27,367 bases of DNA from positions 1 to 27,367 of IMG/VR virus record IMGVR_UViG_3300004807_000099. One strand, given 5' to 3'. The notes under the pieces are model-generated. The model did no database searches. It was not told the DNA's origin and worked only from the letters and a program-made list of their open reading frames with translations. Shown here piece after piece: positions 10,177-18,831 of this stretch (positions within the stretch are counted from its first letter, which is position 1; each line of letters starts with the position of its first letter). This stretch comes from a virus. Position numbers and translations under genes: made by a program.

Positions 10177-10412
10177 GGATTGTAATAAGGAACTTTAAAA
10201 GGTTGTCCATTAATCGTAACATTCATAAACCCTGCTGGATTTGCAGGCAAAGTAGCAGAACCAGCCGTAGCAGTAGTCGCTGAAGTGTTATTTGTCAAAT
10301 TTAAAAAAAACTGAATCCAAGCTCTAGTTGGCCTATTTATAGGAGGATTATCTAAAAAATCCGTTTGAGGCAAAGGATTATTAGTATTTCCAGAAAATAT
10401 TTGATTACTCAT
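10173..10412 (-). CDS. Small virion-associated protein (79 aa)
   Basis: A 79-residue polar protein: an asparagine/proline-rich start (SGNTNNPLPQTDFLDNPPINRPTRAW), one short helix (about 30-42), an Ala/Thr linker and the ending GFMNVTINGQPFKVPYYNP. The N.TINGQ..K.PYY ending recurs in small proteins of tail regions of many environmental phages. It sits where P22 has gp26 (tail needle) or gp14, but is far shorter than the needle (233 aa) and has no long helix. Its stop and start overlap both neighbours. Confidence 0.6.
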   Translation of the reverse strand: MSNQIFSGNTNNPLPQTDFLDNPPINRPTRAWIQFFLNLTNNTSATTATAGSATLPANPAGFMNVTINGQPFKVPYYNP

Positions 10413-12403
10413 TAATTTTCACCTTCCGAACCTTTAAGGTTTGCAGAAACCACTACAGCTTTAATTGGATCAGTAACGACTACTTCAAAAATTCTATCTC
10501 TAGCCATACCAAGTCTACGCCAAATAGCCCTGTGTTTGTAATATCCCTGCTGTCCTAAATCTTGCCAATATTCTTTTGACCAAGTAGATCCACCATCATT
10601 AGACCAGCGAAGCATAGCTTTTGGGTTATATAAAATGTCATTTTGATTAAGTTGTCCAGCATTCCCCAAAACATCAATATCTTGCACTCCAATAGTCAAT
10701 GGAGTATTTAAGGGGATGGTATATGGACTACCTAAATAAGTATTTCTATCACGTGAAAAGCCATTAATTCCAACACCAGGTTGAAACTGAATTTGCAATT
10801 CGTCAAAATACTGACGTTGTAAATCGGTCAAAATATGAGGAGCTCTACGCAATCTGCGAATTTCGCCGCCATTATCTGTGTAATTGGCTTGATCTAATTG
10901 ATACAGATTGCCATTTTGCCAATCTCCAACAACTACAACACCTTGAAAAACAGCCGCACAATTACTGCGATGACGATGGTATTGGTTGTTTGAATCTACC
11001 CATAACCATTTATGCCATAACTCTGTAGTAAAGTCATACGCCCAAGTAATATCAATAGTCGGAAAGCTTACAACATAGACTTCATGGCCTTCTAGCTGGT
11101 ATGTATAAGCTATGGCATCGGCTGTATATTGGTCTAAAAGACTTTGTTCTACAGCATGGGTAGAAATGCGCTGAGGAGTATAGCCATTCATCAAAACAAC
11201 TTGATTTAAACCGCGAATGTTTTGAGAAACATAAGCAAAAGAGTTTCCTACTCTTGCTACTGATTGAGCAGCCGCAATACCTTGCTGGGTAGAACTTCCT
11301 GGAATACGCTGATAAGCTAATGGAAAAGTTCCTTGATCTGACCATACTTCTGATGATTTTTCACCTAACAAATAAAGCTGACCATTGTTTGCTATTAAAG
11401 AAACAAGATTGTCAGGAGCAGTAAATTTGCTTCCAAAACTTAAAGCTTGAGTAATTGGGCTTAAAAGACCAGAAATGGCAAATTGCTGACTGTTTGGCCT
11501 GTTATAAATAAAATAGTTGTCATTAACATCAACTACATCACCGCCAGTAAATGCGCCATCTGTTGTAGGTAATATTGTAAATTGCTCTGCATAAATTGTT
11601 TCAGAACTAACAGTTAAAGAGCCGCCACTTAATATGTAAGTTCCTGTTCCGCCTGTACCAGTTCCTAAAGCAGTAATGATGGTATTAGTCGGTATTCCAG
11701 CACCAATAATGGTTGTTCCAACAGCTAAAGAACCATACAAAACCGCTGTTACAGTAAGGGTAACTACTAATGGAGAACCAGCAGAAGCAATAGAACCAGT
11801 AAAAATACAATAAGGAGGATCGGTATTTAATGTTTCGGAAACAATATTTTGAGAATTATTGACAGTCCAGCTAAAGCCTGAACCGCCTGTAATAATTGTT
11901 CCAGGCAATACACCGCTACCAAAAACTTGAGAGCCAATACTTATTGTGCCAGTTACAAGAGTTGTAATATTTAAAGTTGTTCCTGAAATAGAACCAGTAA
12001 AAATTATTGTATCAGGAGTATCAATTAGCCAAGAATAGCGATTTGCGCCATCTACAATATAAATATAAACACCATTATCGGTAATGCTTACAGGGCCAGT
12101 TGTAGTCTTTAATTGACCAATAATAGAAGATTGATTATTGTAGGCAACCGAATATACATATTCACCACAAACAGCAATAAGCTGAGATCCACCTGATGAA
12201 ATAGTTCTTAAACCTCTTACTGGTCTATTAGGCTGTAAGTTTGTTAAAAATGTTAAACCTGGAGTTGGGTAAAGAGCAACAACGCCTCTTTCACCTTGAG
12301 CTTTTGTAGGATCAATTTCAGGCCTAAAATTTATGCACTCTTGATCGTCTTGATAAATAGATGGAGCAGAATATGCAGCTCCTACAAAACCAAAGTCAGC
12401 CAT
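10412..12403 (-). CDS. P22 gp10-like tail hub / packaged-DNA stabilisation protein with inserted domains
   Basis: A 663-residue protein. The N-terminal part (INFRPEID, ALYPTPGL at 43-50, VRGLR, IAVCG) and the later GYFIY/NRP, GSSTQQGIAAAQSV and AYDFTTELWHKW parts fit the gp10-like propeller-type tail accessory protein, which plugs the portal after packaging and carries the tail. P22 gp10 has 472 residues; here about 140 extra residues (132-275) are inserted between YSWLID and FTILPTTDGAFTGGD. The insert is two copies of a beta-rich module starting FTGSI. The same module is in the gp4-like gene. Gene order gp4-gp10 is kept, apart from the homing endonuclease between them. Confidence 0.82.
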   Translation of the reverse strand: MADFGFVGAAYSAPSIYQDDQECINFRPEIDPTKAQGERGVVALYPTPGLTFLTNLQPNRPVRGLRTISSGGSQLIAVCGEYVYSVAYNNQSSIIGQLKTTTGPVSITDNGVYIYIVDGANRYSWLIDTPDTIIFTGSISGTTLNITTLVTGTISIGSQVFGSGVLPGTIITGGSGFSWTVNNSQNIVSETLNTDPPYCIFTGSIASAGSPLVVTLTVTAVLYGSLAVGTTIIGAGIPTNTIITALGTGTGGTGTYILSGGSLTVSSETIYAEQFTILPTTDGAFTGGDVVDVNDNYFIYNRPNSQQFAISGLLSPITQALSFGSKFTAPDNLVSLIANNGQLYLLGEKSSEVWSDQGTFPLAYQRIPGSSTQQGIAAAQSVARVGNSFAYVSQNIRGLNQVVLMNGYTPQRISTHAVEQSLLDQYTADAIAYTYQLEGHEVYVVSFPTIDITWAYDFTTELWHKWLWVDSNNQYHRHRSNCAAVFQGVVVVGDWQNGNLYQLDQANYTDNGGEIRRLRRAPHILTDLQRQYFDELQIQFQPGVGINGFSRDRNTYLGSPYTIPLNTPLTIGVQDIDVLGNAGQLNQNDILYNPKAMLRWSNDGGSTWSKEYWQDLGQQGYYKHRAIWRRLGMARDRIFEVVVTDPIKAVVVSANLKGSEGEN
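11588..12001 (-). repeat. Two tandem beta-sandwich-like modules inserted in the gp10-like protein
   Basis: Residues 135-198 and 201-272 of the gp10-like protein are each about 65-72 residues and follow the same plan: FTGSI start, a valine/threonine strand, an IG..V.G.G.....TII turn, a glycine-rich loop, then a strand ending VSET. The first copy begins with DNA almost the same as a copy in the gp4-like gene (11969-12001 versus 13665-13697, 31 of 33 bases). Confidence 0.8.
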
Positions 12404-12405
12404 TT

Positions 12406-12945
12406 TTAATCCTCTATATAAGTTAGATTGTTAAAAATGCCATAAATTACATTATATGTAACATTAAATTTTTTAGCTATTTTTCTGCCTGATATTAAAC
12501 CTTTTAATGATCGTATTTCGAAAACTTCTTTAGATGTTAATTTTCTTAATGATCGTTTTGCTTTTTGTTTTCCATTTTTACTAATTAATATTTTTTGTTC
12601 GTTTGATAAAGTTGATCCTTTTCTTGAAGATTCTTTACCTTTTTTTGCAATACTCATTTTTAATCTTGTTTCACTGGAAGGATTTGAGCACCCTTCTCCA
12701 CCATCGGTATGGTTGCATAAATCAATACCTATATCTTTCATGCAAGAAATAAGCAAAACTTCATGGTTTAAAGCTTCTTTTTCAGTTTTCCAATATGCAA
12801 GAATATTAACTTCATAGTCATATTTTGCAACAATCCGTTTCCAATGCTCGCTTCTATCTTTTTTATATGCACGAATTCCTTGTCCTTTTCCAATGTAAAA
12901 AGGAGTTCCATCAAGCTTATTATGAGAATAAGTGTAATGTTGCAT
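12406..12945 (-). CDS. Free-standing GIY-YIG homing endonuclease
   Basis: A 179-residue selfish endonuclease between the gp4-like and gp10-like genes. Its N-terminal domain has the GIY-YIG elements: YTY (4-6) standing for GIY, FYIGKGQG (16-23) for YIG, R25, catalytic E62 in LNHEVLLI, and N79 in LCNHTDGGEG. Residues about 90-112 (SSETRLKMSIAKKGKESSRKG) look like a NUMOD3 DNA-binding motif, and 138-173 (SKEVFEIRSLKGLISGRKIAKKF) like a helix-turn-helix. Such enzymes cut alleles lacking them and spread by repair. Both flanking genes are intact, so it is not inside an intron. Its start overlaps the gp4-like stop as TAATG. It is visibly more AT-rich than its neighbours, a sign of acquisition. Confidence 0.9.
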   Translation of the reverse strand: MQHYTYSHNKLDGTPFYIGKGQGIRAYKKDRSEHWKRIVAKYDYEVNILAYWKTEKEALNHEVLLISCMKDIGIDLCNHTDGGEGCSNPSSETRLKMSIAKKGKESSRKGSTLSNEQKILISKNGKQKAKRSLRKLTSKEVFEIRSLKGLISGRKIAKKFNVTYNVIYGIFNNLTYIED

Positions 12946-14141
12946 TAGCCAGTAAATCCGCCGTTAAGAATCCATCCAGCGTCTTTGGCTCTACCAACAA
13001 GCATTTGTGTTGGATAAGATGCAGACGCTACAGGTTTCATATTTGTACGTTTAATAGTTGCTTTAGATTGTGCTGCATAAGCTGCAATCATGCCTATTTG
13101 AGTTTGAGAAGCTTTGCCATACATTGGCATCAATCTTTCTGCCAAATTCCATCTAAGGCCCATTGAATAGCCCTGCGGCAAAACAATAGTGTCATACAAA
13201 GTTTCGTATCTAGCAAAGATAGTATTGGCAAAAAGGTGCATTTCACCTTGTGCTGGATTAGGCCATACAAATAGATTGCCTTGATCCGCATTAGGGTTGT
13301 AATACAAAGCTTTAGGCCACGGCCCATTAAGCGTTTTTAAGCCAATTTGATTGTAATTTTCGAGGGCTAAAATACCTACTTGATAATCTAAACCGCCATT
13401 AAGTATAGGCTGGCCGTTACTATTGGTATTGATTCGCACATAAGCAGAATCAATAGTTAATGGCTTTTGATAGTAAAGGGTAATTGGAATAGGTATTACA
13501 GAAGCTGTCATAGCCTCACTACCGACTGTTTGACTAGCACTTACTGTGTATGTACCAACTCCGCCGCTTCCGTTCAATATGGCCGTTATAGTGGTTCCTG
13601 AAGTAACTCCAGTACCGCTAATAACAGAGCCAATTCCAAGATAACCAGCAGTAATAGCAGTTACATTTAAAGTAGTGCCTGAAATAGAACCAGTAAATGC
13701 AGGAGCTACTGTAGTGCCAGGTATATTAAGCTGGTAAGTGCCTACTTCATTAACATTACCGCCAGCACCAGTTAAAAATTGGACAATCTTAGTTCCTGAT
13801 GTAATTCCTGAACCTTTAAGGGTTTGCCCTAATGCAACTGCGCCACTACTAATTCCTGAAACAGTAAGAACTTTGCCATTAATTGTTCCACTAATAGCCG
13901 CACCAATATAGTTTGCTGTGCTTGGAGTAGGGCCAATAGTGTATTGAATTTGACCTGAAATTAACGGAAATATGATTTCAGTCGTATTAAATACCATCAT
14001 GCCTTCATTTGACCATTGGTCAATAAGGTCATTAAGCATATCAAAAGCATCTTGAGCCGCTTCAGGAGTTGGTGTTTCACCAGCTTCTAATGCGCCAATG
14101 TCCTTTAATGCTCTGCTAATAATGTCGATTGGCTGAGTCAT
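12945..14141 (-). CDS. P22 gp4-like head-tail adaptor with inserted domains
   Basis: A 398-residue protein. Residues 1-75 ([41 protein letters not shown]) are a clear match to the gp4-like tail accessory family, which binds the portal ring and starts tail assembly. The family resumes at about residue 220 with [14 protein letters not shown] and runs to the end through [16 protein letters not shown] and the helical tail. P22 gp4 has 166 residues. Much of the excess is residues 79-213, two copies of a beta-rich module also found in the gp10-like protein. P22 gp4 also has peptidoglycan hydrolase activity; nothing here shows whether this one does. Confidence 0.85.
13503..13901 (-). repeat. Two tandem beta-sandwich-like modules inserted in the gp4-like protein
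   Basis: Residues 81-148 (starting [16 protein letters not shown]) and 149-213 (starting [15 protein letters not shown]) follow one plan: GSISGTTL strand, a VG/LG turn, GSGI or GTGV followed by TSGT.I, a glycine-rich loop, then GTY..... . The second copy matches the first gp10-like copy almost base for base at its start. The family layout shows they interrupt an otherwise ordinary gp4-like protein. Confidence 0.8.
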
Positions 14142-14150
14142 ATTATTCCG

Positions 14151-14459
14151 TTAAATTTTGACTGTAAAAGTAGGCAATACCCACGGCTTTTTAAGCGATA
14201 CTGGCTCTTTTGCTAATAATTGCTTTTCTAAATTATCCTCAATAATGCACTTTTCATCAATTATTGATTCATTTTTTATCCAAGCAATTACATCTTTTTC
14301 AGTTGTTAAATCTTGTAAAAAATGAGTTTTATCTTGGAAAGTCCAATAACCTTCAGTTTCTATTGAATTATTACCATCAATAGCTTTTACACTATATTTG
14401 ATTTGGATAATGACAGCATCTTGCTCAATGATGTCTAAAACTTTCCAACTAAAAATCAT
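14151..14459 (-). CDS. Hypothetical virion-region protein (102 aa)
   Basis: A 102-residue mixed beta/alpha protein starting MIFSWKVLDIIEQD, with a strand pattern (VIIQIKYSVKAID, EGYWTFQD), an ENDVIAWIKNE-like helix near residue 55-65 and a basic end LPTFTVKI. The layout resembles small proteins next to tail fibres in environmental phages, whose function is unknown. It overlaps the upstream fibre stop by 4 bases, which suggests coupled translation and perhaps a role in fibre assembly; that is inference. Confidence 0.55.
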   Translation of the reverse strand: MIFSWKVLDIIEQDAVIIQIKYSVKAIDGNNSIETEGYWTFQDKTHFLQDLTTEKDVIAWIKNESIIDEKCIIEDNLEKQLLAKEPVSLKKPWVLPTFTVKI

Positions 14460-15541
14460 GCGTAGTAGCTTCCTGAGGTGGTAAATTTCATAATAGTATT
14501 TCCACCACTAGTAGTTACAGTAGGTGATCCTGATACTGTGCCTGTATAGCTTGCCGTTGGCACAGAAATATATATAACTCCTGAACCACCATTATAAGAA
14601 CCGCCGCCTCCACCGCCAGTATTTGCAGTACCAGCAGAACCTCCTGTATTGGCTTGATTGCCACCAGTACCTCCACCGCCATTGCCGCCTGAACCGCCTG
14701 AACCATACCAGCCTTGACCGCCGCCGCCGCCGCAAAGATAAACAGTAGAGCCTGTAATGGTTGTAGATAAACCTACACCGCCAGCACCACCAGTTGTGCC
14801 ATCAGAAGCAGAATTTGCTCCTGTTCCTCCTGCACCACCACCACCACCGCCGCCTTGACCATTTCCAGCGTTATAAACTGAAGAACCACCGCCATTACCT
14901 TGACCGCTAGTTCCTGAACCTCCGCTTACTGTGCCAGTATTGCCGTTTGATGTACCTCCAGCACCACTTCCTCCTGAGCCTCCTATACCGCCACCACCAA
15001 CTCCTCCACCGCCGCCGCCTATAGCGACAGCGATACCAGTTAATTGTGAATTTGCTCCATTAGTTCCAGTAGAGCCTCCAGCACCAAGAACTGCATAATA
15101 ATAAGTGCCAGGAATTAAAGTAAAAGTAGAGGTTAAATAACCTCCAGCACCACCACCGCCTTGTGAACCTCCGCCACCGCCAGCCGCAATTACATAAGTT
15201 CCTGAATAAGAACCTTCATTGGTAGTAGTAAATTTTACCCATTGACCAGCCGCATATCCTTCATAAAATCCGCCACCATCAGTATTAAATCGAATAATTC
15301 CAGTAGTAGGACTAGAAGTTCTTTGTGAAGAATTGCCTTTTGGTAGTTGAAGTTGTGTAGTACCAGTAATTAAAGCAGTCCCTGTTACAGTCAAATTTGT
15401 AACGGATAAGTTATTACTTGAATCTTGAATAAGCAAAGTTCCATTAGTTGCTGGAATAGTTAAATTAATTGTGCTTGCTGTATCAGCATTAGTAAGAGTT
15501 ACTGTGCCGCCTGAAGGAGCTAAAAATATTAGTTGCGACAT
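14456..15541 (-). CDS. Glycine-rich tail fibre / adhesin
   Basis: A 361-residue fibre protein. The N-terminal part (1-70) is threonine-rich beta strand (APSGGTVTLTNADTAST, VTNLTVTGTALITGTTQL). Next is a conserved fibre motif, LPKGNSSQRTSSPTTG followed by RFN (about 65-85), then a long glycine-rich domain (about 120-318) with many GGGGG runs broken by short strands, and the end VTTSGGNTIMKFTTSGSYYA. Glycine-rich adhesin domains of this sort can fold as a layered polyglycine-II sandwich, known from the gp38 adhesin of phage S16, with loops that contact the receptor. It is paralogous in design to the 966-residue fibre nearby. Confidence 0.8.
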   Translation of the reverse strand: MSQLIFLAPSGGTVTLTNADTASTINLTIPATNGTLLIQDSSNNLSVTNLTVTGTALITGTTQLQLPKGNSSQRTSSPTTGIIRFNTDGGGFYEGYAAGQWVKFTTTNEGSYSGTYVIAAGGGGGSQGGGGAGGYLTSTFTLIPGTYYYAVLGAGGSTGTNGANSQLTGIAVAIGGGGGGVGGGGIGGSGGSGAGGTSNGNTGTVSGGSGTSGQGNGGGSSVYNAGNGQGGGGGGGAGGTGANSASDGTTGGAGGVGLSTTITGSTVYLCGGGGGQGWYGSGGSGGNGGGGTGGNQANTGGSAGTANTGGGGGGSYNGGSGVIYISVPTASYTGTVSGSPTVTTSGGNTIMKFTTSGSYYA

Positions 15542-15930: not shown

Positions 15931-18831
15931 TTAAGCTGTATAAGTACCGCTAGATGTGAATGTATGAATGGTGTAACCGCCAGATGAGGTGACAGTTCCG
16001 CCAGTACCCCTTTGGCTGCCAAGATAAGAAATAATTACTATGCCAGAACCTCCTGTACCTGCCGCTACAGAGTTAGCCTGAGAACCTCCACCACCACCTG
16101 TGTTAGCTGTTCCATTTGAATTTGAAATGCCACTACTTCCTCCGCCTCCATTTGAGCCAGTTTGAGTATTACTCGCATTATTTCCAGCGCCTCCACCAGC
16201 ATAATAAGTAGATGTTCCTGAAATAGAATAAGCTGCACCGCTACCTCCAGCAGGAGTGCTTCCTGCAGCACCAGCACCACCACCTCCGCCACCTTGACTA
16301 TTTGCTAATGAACCATTACCACCAGCATTTCCTTGACCAGAAGTTCCACTTGCGCCTGTAGTTACACCAAGTGCAGTTCCACCTCCTCCAGAGCCGCCTG
16401 ATGTAGGTGCGCCATTTATTGCTGATATTTGACCAGAGCCAGCTCCACCTCCAATAGCAGTATAAGTAAGCGCAGATGAATTTGAACCAGCAGTTCCAGC
16501 GCCATTATTTCCTGAGCCTGGATTTCCCGCTCCACCAGCGCCAATCGTTATCGTATATGCAGTTGTTTGGGTTAAAGTAACAGCTGACTGATAAATAAGT
16601 CCTCCAGCACCACCACCTCCACCATAACCACCAAAACCACCTCCACCACCGCCAGCAACAATTAAAGCTAAAACAGAATATGTTTGGCTAGTAATAGATG
16701 TCCAAGATGTTCCACTATAAATTTCAGTTTGATTCAATGTAGTGTTATATCTTGTAGCTCCAGCTACAGGAGAAGCTGGTCTTTGAGCAGTTGTTCCTGA
16801 TGGTAAATTTATTGCTCCTACAGCACCACTAAAATCTAAAATTCCTAAACTTGGATTCCATTTAAGCTCTGTAGAGCTAGTATTAATTGCGCTAATTGTG
16901 CCGCTAGTTGCGCTAGTAAATGTTAAATAACGAGTTGCATTAGTACTTGTATCATCAGTTACAGTTAAGCCAGCAGAGATAGTAGTCCAAGAAGGTGCGG
17001 CTCCTGAGCCAGCAGAAGTTAATACTTGACCAGTTGTACCAAAATTTGTAGTACCAGTAATATTAGTATTTAAGCCAATAGCACCGCTAGAATTAATTAC
17101 ATGGGCAGATTGGCCTGTACTACCCCAAGCCAAATATAAATTTTGACCATTTCCTGAGCCTACTGTAATAGCGCCATCATGACCGCTAAAGTAAATGCCA
17201 TTATTTATAGAAAAGAAATCAGCAGGAGTACCTGAGCTAAATGTAGATGAATTCATGCCGAATTCACCATAATAAGTAGAATCAGTACCTAAATCATTGC
17301 TTGCTACATAATTTGTAGATGCTCCAGCAGAAGTCGATTTATTTTGTATTACAAGCTGATTGTATGAGCTTGCTGTAGAAGAGCCAAAAGAAGCAATAGT
17401 ATTTGATGCGTTAAAGCTTAATACTGGAGTAGTGCTTGTAACTGAATTTCCTGACAAAGTGGTGAAATCACCGCTTGACCTAGTAGTTGCGCCTATAGAT
17501 ACACCATTTAATGCGCTTACAGTAGTACCTAAAGCGGCGGCTGTAGAGCCAAAAGTAATAGAGCTATTTGTAAGTGCGCTATTAGCAATATTAGATAATG
17601 TACCGCCTAAAGTAAGGCTTCCGCTAGTAGTTACAGTACCAGTTAAAGTTAATCCATTTACAGTACCAGTACCGCTTACTGAAGTTACAGTTCCAGTAGT
17701 AGGAGTTGCCCAAGATGGAATTCCTGAAGCCAATGTAAGAACTTGACCATTAGTTCCAGCAGCCAAAAATGTAGTTGCATTAGCCCCAGTTTGATAAGGC
17801 AATGAGCCAGCCGCACCGCCAGCCAATCCTCCAGCATATCCTGTAGTATTTTGATTAAATGTAGGCCAAGTAAATGTACCAGTAGAAAAATTACCGCTTG
17901 CAGGAGTACCTAAAGCTGGCGCAATAAGCGTTGGGCTATTAGCAAATACCAAAGCTCCAGTACCAGTTTCATCGCTTACAGTAGCCGCTAAATTGGCTGA
18001 TGTAGGAGTTTGCAAGAATGTAAGCATTCCAGTAGCAAGGCCTGTTACATTTCCAATAGCAGGAGTAATTGTAGTATTGGTTACTGAAGTAATTTGCCCT
18101 TGAGCATTTACGGCAAATACAGGAGTAGCAGTAGCAGAGCCATAAGTAGTAGCGGCTACTCCAGTATTGGTAATGCTAAATTGATAGCCAGTTAAAGTTA
18201 AACCAGGTCCAGCAGTATAGTTAGCGGCTGTAGAGAAATTACTCCAAGTCATCGCTGTAGTGCCTAATGTACCGCCTGGCTGGGCAGTACAATACCATGC
18301 AGAGCCAGCTTGACCGCCATACTCTACAAATACTAATGCGCTTACATATTGAGCCCAAGTAGTAGAACCAGTAGCATAAGTCCAAGCTCCAGTATTTACT
18401 ATATAAATACCATTTTGAGATGATGTAGATTGATTTTTTACTAATACTGTATTACCAGCTACAAGGCTTACTGTATCTACAGTTTGCAATCCTGAAAGAG
18501 TAATATTTGTAGTAGTAGCCGCCGTTACAGGAGCTTTCCAACTAATTCCAACAGCTACAGAATCTACATACAATTTATTAGCAATATCAGTAGAGCCAGT
18601 AGGAGTAGCCGCTACTTGACCGCTGGTAAAGCTACCAGTAGAAGGAGTGGTTGCGCCAATTCGACTGCTATCAATAGTACTATTTGTAATAGTCAAGCCT
18701 GATTGAACAGGATTAATTGTTGCTGTAAATGCTTTACCTTGACCAATAAAAGTCTGAAAGTTTCCATTTACATCAAAATAAGCCTGTACAGGCAGTAAAT
18801 TCTGAACTGTAGAATTAGCTGGATTAGCCAT
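15931..18831 (-). CDS. Large tail fibre with glycine-rich C-terminal adhesin domain
   Basis: A 966-residue fibre. It opens with TVQNLLPVQAYFDVNGNFQTF, a start shared with the 162-residue protein upstream and so probably the virion-attachment part. Residues about 60-110 contain STGSFTSG and a DIANKLYVDS motif common in fibres. The shaft is S/T/G/N-rich with repeated NGQVLTLASGIPSW / TGQVLTSAGSGAAPSW units. Near residue 690 comes LPSGTTAQRPASPVAG.TRYN, then a glycine-rich domain from about 735 with many GGGGG runs, and the end GGTVTSSGGYTIHTFTSSGTYTA. This order (anchor, shaft, glycine-rich tip) fits a host-recognition fibre. The glycine tip matches the design of the 361-residue fibre. Confidence 0.85.
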   Translation of the reverse strand: MANPANSTVQNLLPVQAYFDVNGNFQTFIGQGKAFTATINPVQSGLTITNSTIDSSRIGATTPSTGSFTSGQVAATPTGSTDIANKLYVDSVAVGISWKAPVTAATTTNITLSGLQTVDTVSLVAGNTVLVKNQSTSSQNGIYIVNTGAWTYATGSTTWAQYVSALVFVEYGGQAGSAWYCTAQPGGTLGTTAMTWSNFSTAANYTAGPGLTLTGYQFSITNTGVAATTYGSATATPVFAVNAQGQITSVTNTTITPAIGNVTGLATGMLTFLQTPTSANLAATVSDETGTGALVFANSPTLIAPALGTPASGNFSTGTFTWPTFNQNTTGYAGGLAGGAAGSLPYQTGANATTFLAAGTNGQVLTLASGIPSWATPTTGTVTSVSGTGTVNGLTLTGTVTTSGSLTLGGTLSNIANSALTNSSITFGSTAAALGTTVSALNGVSIGATTRSSGDFTTLSGNSVTSTTPVLSFNASNTIASFGSSTASSYNQLVIQNKSTSAGASTNYVASNDLGTDSTYYGEFGMNSSTFSSGTPADFFSINNGIYFSGHDGAITVGSGNGQNLYLAWGSTGQSAHVINSSGAIGLNTNITGTTNFGTTGQVLTSAGSGAAPSWTTISAGLTVTDDTSTNATRYLTFTSATSGTISAINTSSTELKWNPSLGILDFSGAVGAINLPSGTTAQRPASPVAGATRYNTTLNQTEIYSGTSWTSITSQTYSVLALIVAGGGGGGFGGYGGGGGAGGLIYQSAVTLTQTTAYTITIGAGGAGNPGSGNNGAGTAGSNSSALTYTAIGGGAGSGQISAINGAPTSGGSGGGGTALGVTTGASGTSGQGNAGGNGSLANSQGGGGGGAGAAGSTPAGGSGAAYSISGTSTYYAGGGAGNNASNTQTGSNGGGGSSGISNSNGTANTGGGGGSQANSVAAGTGGSGIVIISYLGSQRGTGGTVTSSGGYTIHTFTSSGTYTA

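Follow-up and report, generated by a model that had tools for sequence, protein, structure and literature searches.

An unnamed domain inserted in tandem into the gp4-like and gp10-like proteins of a freshwater phage and present in many other virion proteins

Why do two conserved virion proteins of one virus each carry the same short segment twice, and how did the segment come to lie in both? The question is raised by IMG/VR virus record IMGVR_UViG_3300004807_000099, a freshwater bacterial virus whose complete record of 27,367 bases was analysed here (the window). A previous reading of this DNA without database searches (the sequence-only reading) had noticed four copies of one module interrupting a gp4-like and a gp10-like protein, which are encoded close to each other on the minus strand. 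The two genes, their inserts and the module copies are listed below; the limits of the whole inserts come from alignment of relatives, and loci of relatives are given by L numbers.

12945-14141, minus strand: gp4-like head-tail adaptor gene (398 amino acids), bearing the first double insert
13491-13928, minus strand: whole gp4 insert, about residues 72-217
13704-13910, minus strand: gp4 module copy 1, residues 78-146, at a position common to all IMG/VR relatives fetched
13503-13703, minus strand: gp4 module copy 2, residues 147-213, missing from about half of the relatives
10412-12403, minus strand: gp10-like head-closure/packaged-DNA stabilisation gene (663 amino acids), bearing the second double insert
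11585-12016, minus strand: whole gp10 insert, about residues 130-273
11822-12004, minus strand: gp10 module copy 1, residues 134-194, a short variant without the GTGTGG loop
11585-11809, minus strand: gp10 module copy 2, residues 199-273, split in some relatives

Our analysis suggests that these segments are very probably a promiscuous virion domain, drawn from a shared pool and looped into exposed β-hairpins of many particle proteins, where each position forms its own lineage. The four copies in the window span 61-75 residues, with a domain of about 65 residues. Copy against copy, BLASTP gave 32-50% protein identity (E values from 1e-4 to 4e-13), and a hidden Markov model (HMM) built from the four recovers every copy, which confirms the module at the four places where it had been noticed. 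Using gp4 as the query, tblastn against the window's own record also detected the gp10 copies (E=4e-9 and 7e-7). No module copy was found in the window beyond the two in gp4 and the two in gp10.

Outside the inserts, both proteins are ordinary members of their families, as had been claimed. The gp4-like core matches PHROG 12985 (E=2.4e-38) and PHROG 637, "head-tail adaptor Ad3" (2.4e-6). Foldseek comparison of its model detected the portal-tail complex of cyanophage A4 (E=2.9e-5, prob 1.0) and further tail-complex chains of KHP30 and GP4; the direct sequence match to P22 gp4 reached only E=0.79. This protein has the adaptor fold, and its gene is sited between the capsid genes and gp10, as in P22 gp4-like adaptors. 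The gp10-like core matches PHROG 578, "head closure Hc3" (E=1.7e-89), and its β-propeller model matches P22 gp10 (8u10, E=2.6e-16), so that profile and fold are both those of a P22 gp10-like head-closure protein. Genes for a P22-type portal (PF16510, 4.6e-179) and coat (PF11651, 8e-32) are also present in the window.

The gp4 insert occupies a β-hairpin loop that follows YTIGP and precedes the strand running into an RP/KPL motif. In Rhodoferax phage P26218, MW202557, DSL-LC05 and MW202483, whose gp4 proteins have 234-238 amino acids, both flanks align and the whole block is missing. The gp10 insert lies in a turn of the β-propeller, from RYTW to TFTxLP, and this site is empty at 25 loci, including L049, L050, L044, L060, P26218 and PBR31. 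Here, module-free relatives read RYTWVATTNTFTTLPNTDG and the window reads RYSWLIDTPDT-[two modules]-QFTILPTTDG. Since relatives have intact cores with clean empty sites, the gp4 and gp10 blocks are true insertions, located at defined places as the sequence-only reading had stated.

Both the presence and the number of modules vary at one site among relatives. The 155 IMG/VR gp4 genes contain one, two or three copies and those of isolates contain none; gp10 genes contain zero, two, three or four HMM segments. Copy numbers in the two genes vary separately (18 loci have two copies in gp4 and none in gp10; 45 loci have one in gp4 and two in gp10). On trees built from core sequences with the inserts removed, nine copy-number changes were needed for gp4 (at least five of them forced by well-supported branches) and seven for gp10.

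A divergent insert, GGDISGAGIPAGATVTAIGANTVTMSLNATAT, was also observed in the corresponding loop of gp4 of Xanthomonas phage PBR31 (L162:3986-4939). By eye it resembles a distant version of the module, and it falls under the profile threshold.

The second gp10 module is itself interrupted in some relatives. In 43 of 146 gp10 sequences (L117, L099, L142 and 40 further gp10 loci), it is split inside the GTG loop by a segment of ~79 residues (IATAGTGYAVNDTITVLGG...), an unrelated repeat that has no match to the module profile. When this nested segment was left out, the module became full-length again (median score raised from 57.9 to 74.3 bits, 65/65 profile positions). Thus, most gp10 genes that appear to have three copies contain two modules, one of which is split, and a third module was rejected as the explanation of these 43 sequences. 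It also follows that the module itself tolerates insertion.

To what extent is the module shared by other proteins? Neither Pfam nor NCBIfam has a family that matches it, and in PHROG 21413 and PHROG 38233 (tail fiber protein) it forms part of larger proteins. A profile and a degenerate DNA pattern detected the module in many further proteins, from environmental phages and some bacterial genomes, and about 78 distinct protein contexts were left after removal of similar hosts. These include the N-terminal part of an HK97-type capsid protein (Phage_capsid, L246), the inside of lambda gpD-type decoration proteins (L268 and L322), and proteins with Phage_cement and XM1 gp53 (L247 and L270). Other Pfam hosts are Baseplate_J, DUF3383, T4 gp9/10, Collar, Peptidase_S74 and the T7 tail-fibre N-terminal domain, and PHROG hosts comprise tail sheath, major tail protein, minor head protein, baseplate wedge and virion structural families. 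Even within one family, PHROG 3287, its position varies (e.g., residues 208, 351 and 492). The same domain is therefore found in many unrelated virion proteins, as a promiscuous domain would be. In SU10_adaptor (L336:2108-2983, minus strand), the module occupies a loop at residues 127-190, ahead of the VFIFGPFP strand. This second, different adaptor family suggests that adaptor hairpins received the module in parallel in separate phage groups, and such hairpins may be favoured landing places.

Against isolate phages, tblastn with the bare module gave no match, probably due to masking of low complexity, and a double-module query matched only MW202520 and MW202674. A literature search of open PubMed Central papers for the motif or the PHROG names found no report, and an earlier description may exist elsewhere. 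Structure matches in BFVD include phage major capsid proteins, Stf, pectate-lyase and chaperone-type proteins, and a giant-virus collagen-like protein. Two collagen-repeat proteins of Indivirus (A0A1V0SCQ2 and A0A1V0SDM6_2) matched the gp4 model at E=2e-12 and 2e-9 with 19-23% identity; a spread of the module to giant viruses, if true, would be notable.

One phage, L322, has the module both in a major tail protein (PHROG 807) and in a lambda gpD-like decoration protein (L322:3-857 and L322:3546-4382). The two copies share 84% protein identity and only 74% DNA identity. Within-genome pairs of this kind in other phages suggest recent copying in their proteins and not in their DNA; recent copying was rejected for them, and protein constraint is indicated instead.

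The fold of the module was examined using AlphaFold models of whole single chains. Predicted local distance difference test (pLDDT) values are mostly 86-96 in the gp4 module region and 82-93 in the gp10 modules, equal to or above those of the cores, and the models indicate an independently folding domain. The predicted strand pattern is all-beta, with long, bent strands. Among solved structures, the best Foldseek match of the module is chain 1 of 8eci, a capsid entry of Arthrobacter phage Bridgette (75 columns, 32% identity, root-mean-square deviation 2.9, prob 1.00). Weak sequence hints were obtained for FeoA (0.046) and, at low significance and in longer proteins, E1_FCCH, both of which are β-barrels, and weak Foldseek matches are the barrels of EF-Tu/eIF2-gamma. 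Based on these matches, the predicted fold is more likely a small β-barrel.

The sequence-only reading had described the insert as immunoglobulin (Ig)-like, and the module may be imagined as a genuine β-sandwich of the Big/FN3 class that belongs to the known set of phage Ig-like domains. Such a fold would be consistent with an all-beta domain of about 65 residues that is often tandem and sits on virion proteins, as Ig-like domains do. However, no Ig, Big or FN3 model was matched at E values up to 10 (Pfam) or up to 1 (NCBIfam), none of the PDB Foldseek matches listed is Ig-like, the weak hints point to barrels, and the strands are long and bent. We consider an Ig-like fold unlikely, and the description was not upheld. 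A different possibility is that the segments are integral to the adaptor and propeller folds and were lost in some relatives. The presence of gp4 copy 1 in every IMG/VR relative retrieved with this query would fit this possibility, but the gp4 cores of the four phages with empty sites are complete without the module, as are the cores of at least ten gp10 proteins, and the same module occurs in dozens of unrelated folds. It is extremely improbable that the segments are part of either core.

That constant first copy also weighs against a promiscuous accessory domain, since it may be structurally useful rather than purely accessory. Two further points belong on the same side. Among PDB sequences, the module and its profiles found chance matches only, and 8eci was missing from the profile searches, homology being indicated by fold comparison alone. 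In addition, the function and the outward placement on the assembled neck are both proposed by analogy, the models being of whole single chains.

Did the domain pass directly between the two genes? The sequence-only reading had proposed that DNA was moved or converted recently between gp4 and gp10, based on the openings of two copies:

13665-13697, minus strand: 33-base opening of gp4 copy 2, which also agrees at 31/33 bases with the gp4 allele of L084
11969-12001, minus strand: 33-base opening of gp10 copy 1, identical at 31/33 bases to 13665-13697

The count of 31 of 33 shared bases is exact. It would be accounted for if DNA movement or gene conversion had recently copied a surface domain from one neighbouring gene to the other, and agreement at 31 or more bases is above chance given the peptide and the codon usage of the window (P=0.0035; mean 24.6). 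However, the peptides encoded by the two openings are identical (11/11) and represent a strongly conserved opening of the family; with the peptide identical and codon usage fixed, the agreement is much less striking. Within the opening, codons (serine TCA and phenylalanine TTT) agree modestly more often, as they also do between genomes, and openings with similar peptides share about as many bases within the same genome (24.2/33) as between genomes (23.6/33). We compared 340 module copies in a nearest-neighbour test, 209 of which are gp4/gp10 copies in four positions. All but one of these (208/209) are nearest to same-position copies of other genomes. When a copy's own class is set aside, the closest module lies in an unrelated protein for 165/209 copies and in the other gene of the same genome for none. 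Ranked by similarity to gp4 copies, the gp10 copy from the same genome stands at the 49th percentile.

The closest comparison is with L005, whose gp10 region has 95% DNA identity to the window. The two differ by a short divergent patch at the junction of gp4 copies 1 and 2, where L005 resembles the gp4 of L004 and the window resembles the gp4 of L084 and L103, a pattern that suggests recombination between gp4 alleles there. As L084 gp10 lacks this DNA similarity, the common ancestor of the window and L005 may have undergone a short conversion from gp4 to gp10, but a single 33-base stretch is the evidence for it. Across phages, strong protein conservation combined with diverged DNA implies that protein constraint explains most such short matches. 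Recent gp4-gp10 movement or conversion is therefore mostly not supported by these comparisons, and we regard it as quite improbable. The earlier picture of a mobile surface domain spreading between neighbouring genes can be kept in one part: the domain is mobile over many virion proteins, and the spread from gp4 to gp10 or back is not borne out by the nearest-neighbour test.

A reasonable scheme for the promiscuous domain would be as follows. Phages would draw the domain from a common pool and bear it in exposed β-hairpins of varied particle proteins, and the host protein would tolerate the domain because it folds on its own. One copy may have entered the hairpin of the adaptor (gp4), with a second and sometimes a third added alongside later, and two copies may have entered the hairpin turn of the gp10 propeller. 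Each position would then have been inherited as a separate lineage, with gain, loss and reshuffling along the tree. The domain most likely projects outward, where, by analogy with other virion domains, it may bind cell-surface polymers weakly or brace neighbouring subunits like capsid cement proteins. In P22, 12 copies of gp4 and 6 of gp10 are present. If this stoichiometry holds, the particle would bear about 24 + 12 modules around the neck. A general role on the particle surface fits better than a neck-specific one, because the module is spread over capsid, neck, tail and baseplate proteins. More tentatively, and with somewhat less than even confidence, we propose that a single unnamed small β-barrel, distinct from the Ig superfamily, is among the commonest mobile surface elements of tailed phages, occupying hairpins of capsid, decoration, connector, tail and baseplate proteins, having reached giant viruses and serving as a landing site for nested domains.

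Some neighbouring genes were also observed. A homing endonuclease-type gene (12406-12945, minus strand; PHROG 314 homing endonuclease, 5.2e-12; NUMOD3 motif; GIY-YIG by eye) is placed exactly within the TAATG stop/start overlap of gp4 and gp10. The junction is uninterrupted in L005 and L084 (GGCTAATGGCAGATTTTGG), about a dozen relatives have related open reading frames at this place, and MW202674 and MW202483 have annotated endonucleases there. Upstream of gp4, two glycine-rich proteins (14456-15541 and 15931-18831, minus strand; Gly_rich_2, PHROG 2295) have related C-terminal parts, and the larger contains a head-decoration-like segment (PHROG 2647).

Ig-like domains have been described on phage virion proteins (Fraser et al. 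2006, as cited in PMC8718954), and weak binding to cell-surface sugars has been proposed for the Ig/FN3 domains of tail tubes (PMC8718954). Like them, the module is small, all-beta, tandem and promiscuous over unrelated virion proteins, and by analogy it is probably dispensable and displayed outward; unlike them, it has no sequence match to any Ig/Big/FN3 family. Its position also differs: it is mostly looped into connector, capsid and decoration proteins, and the Ig domains of tail tubes lie at the C terminus (PMC8718954). In Bridgette, dimeric capsid cement proteins are reported around the penton (PMC13033339). Chain 1 of 8eci, the best solved-fold match, is only putatively this cement protein, and it is a separate chain of 124 residues whereas the module of the window is an insert. 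PMC10684548 treats the sharing of domains among functionally different phage proteins, those of the neck included, and describes RIFT-related domains for proteins of both tail and neck; the module is not named in the sections of that study considered here, and its hosts in our data are mostly environmental phages. In the PHROG collection, the module corresponds to ~400-465 of PHROG 21413 and ~555-625 of PHROG 38233, both of which are whole-protein clusters in which the domain is neither delimited nor named. The module is an unnamed addition to the promiscuous accessory domains of virions, and it is unusual in breadth.

Promiscuous domains of phage particles are usually discussed in terms of Ig-like domains on tail and capsid proteins. 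The family described here is a different one, absent from Pfam and NCBIfam, and it sits in loops of structurally constrained proteins such as the portal adaptor, the head-closure propeller, the capsid protein and gpD. The shared openings of gp4 and gp10 are also a caution that highly conserved short motifs can look like recent DNA exchange. The module provides natural pairs of empty and filled sites for testing the role of the domain, flags loops that tolerate insertion, and accounts for part of the "unknown" annotation among virion proteins of environmental phages.

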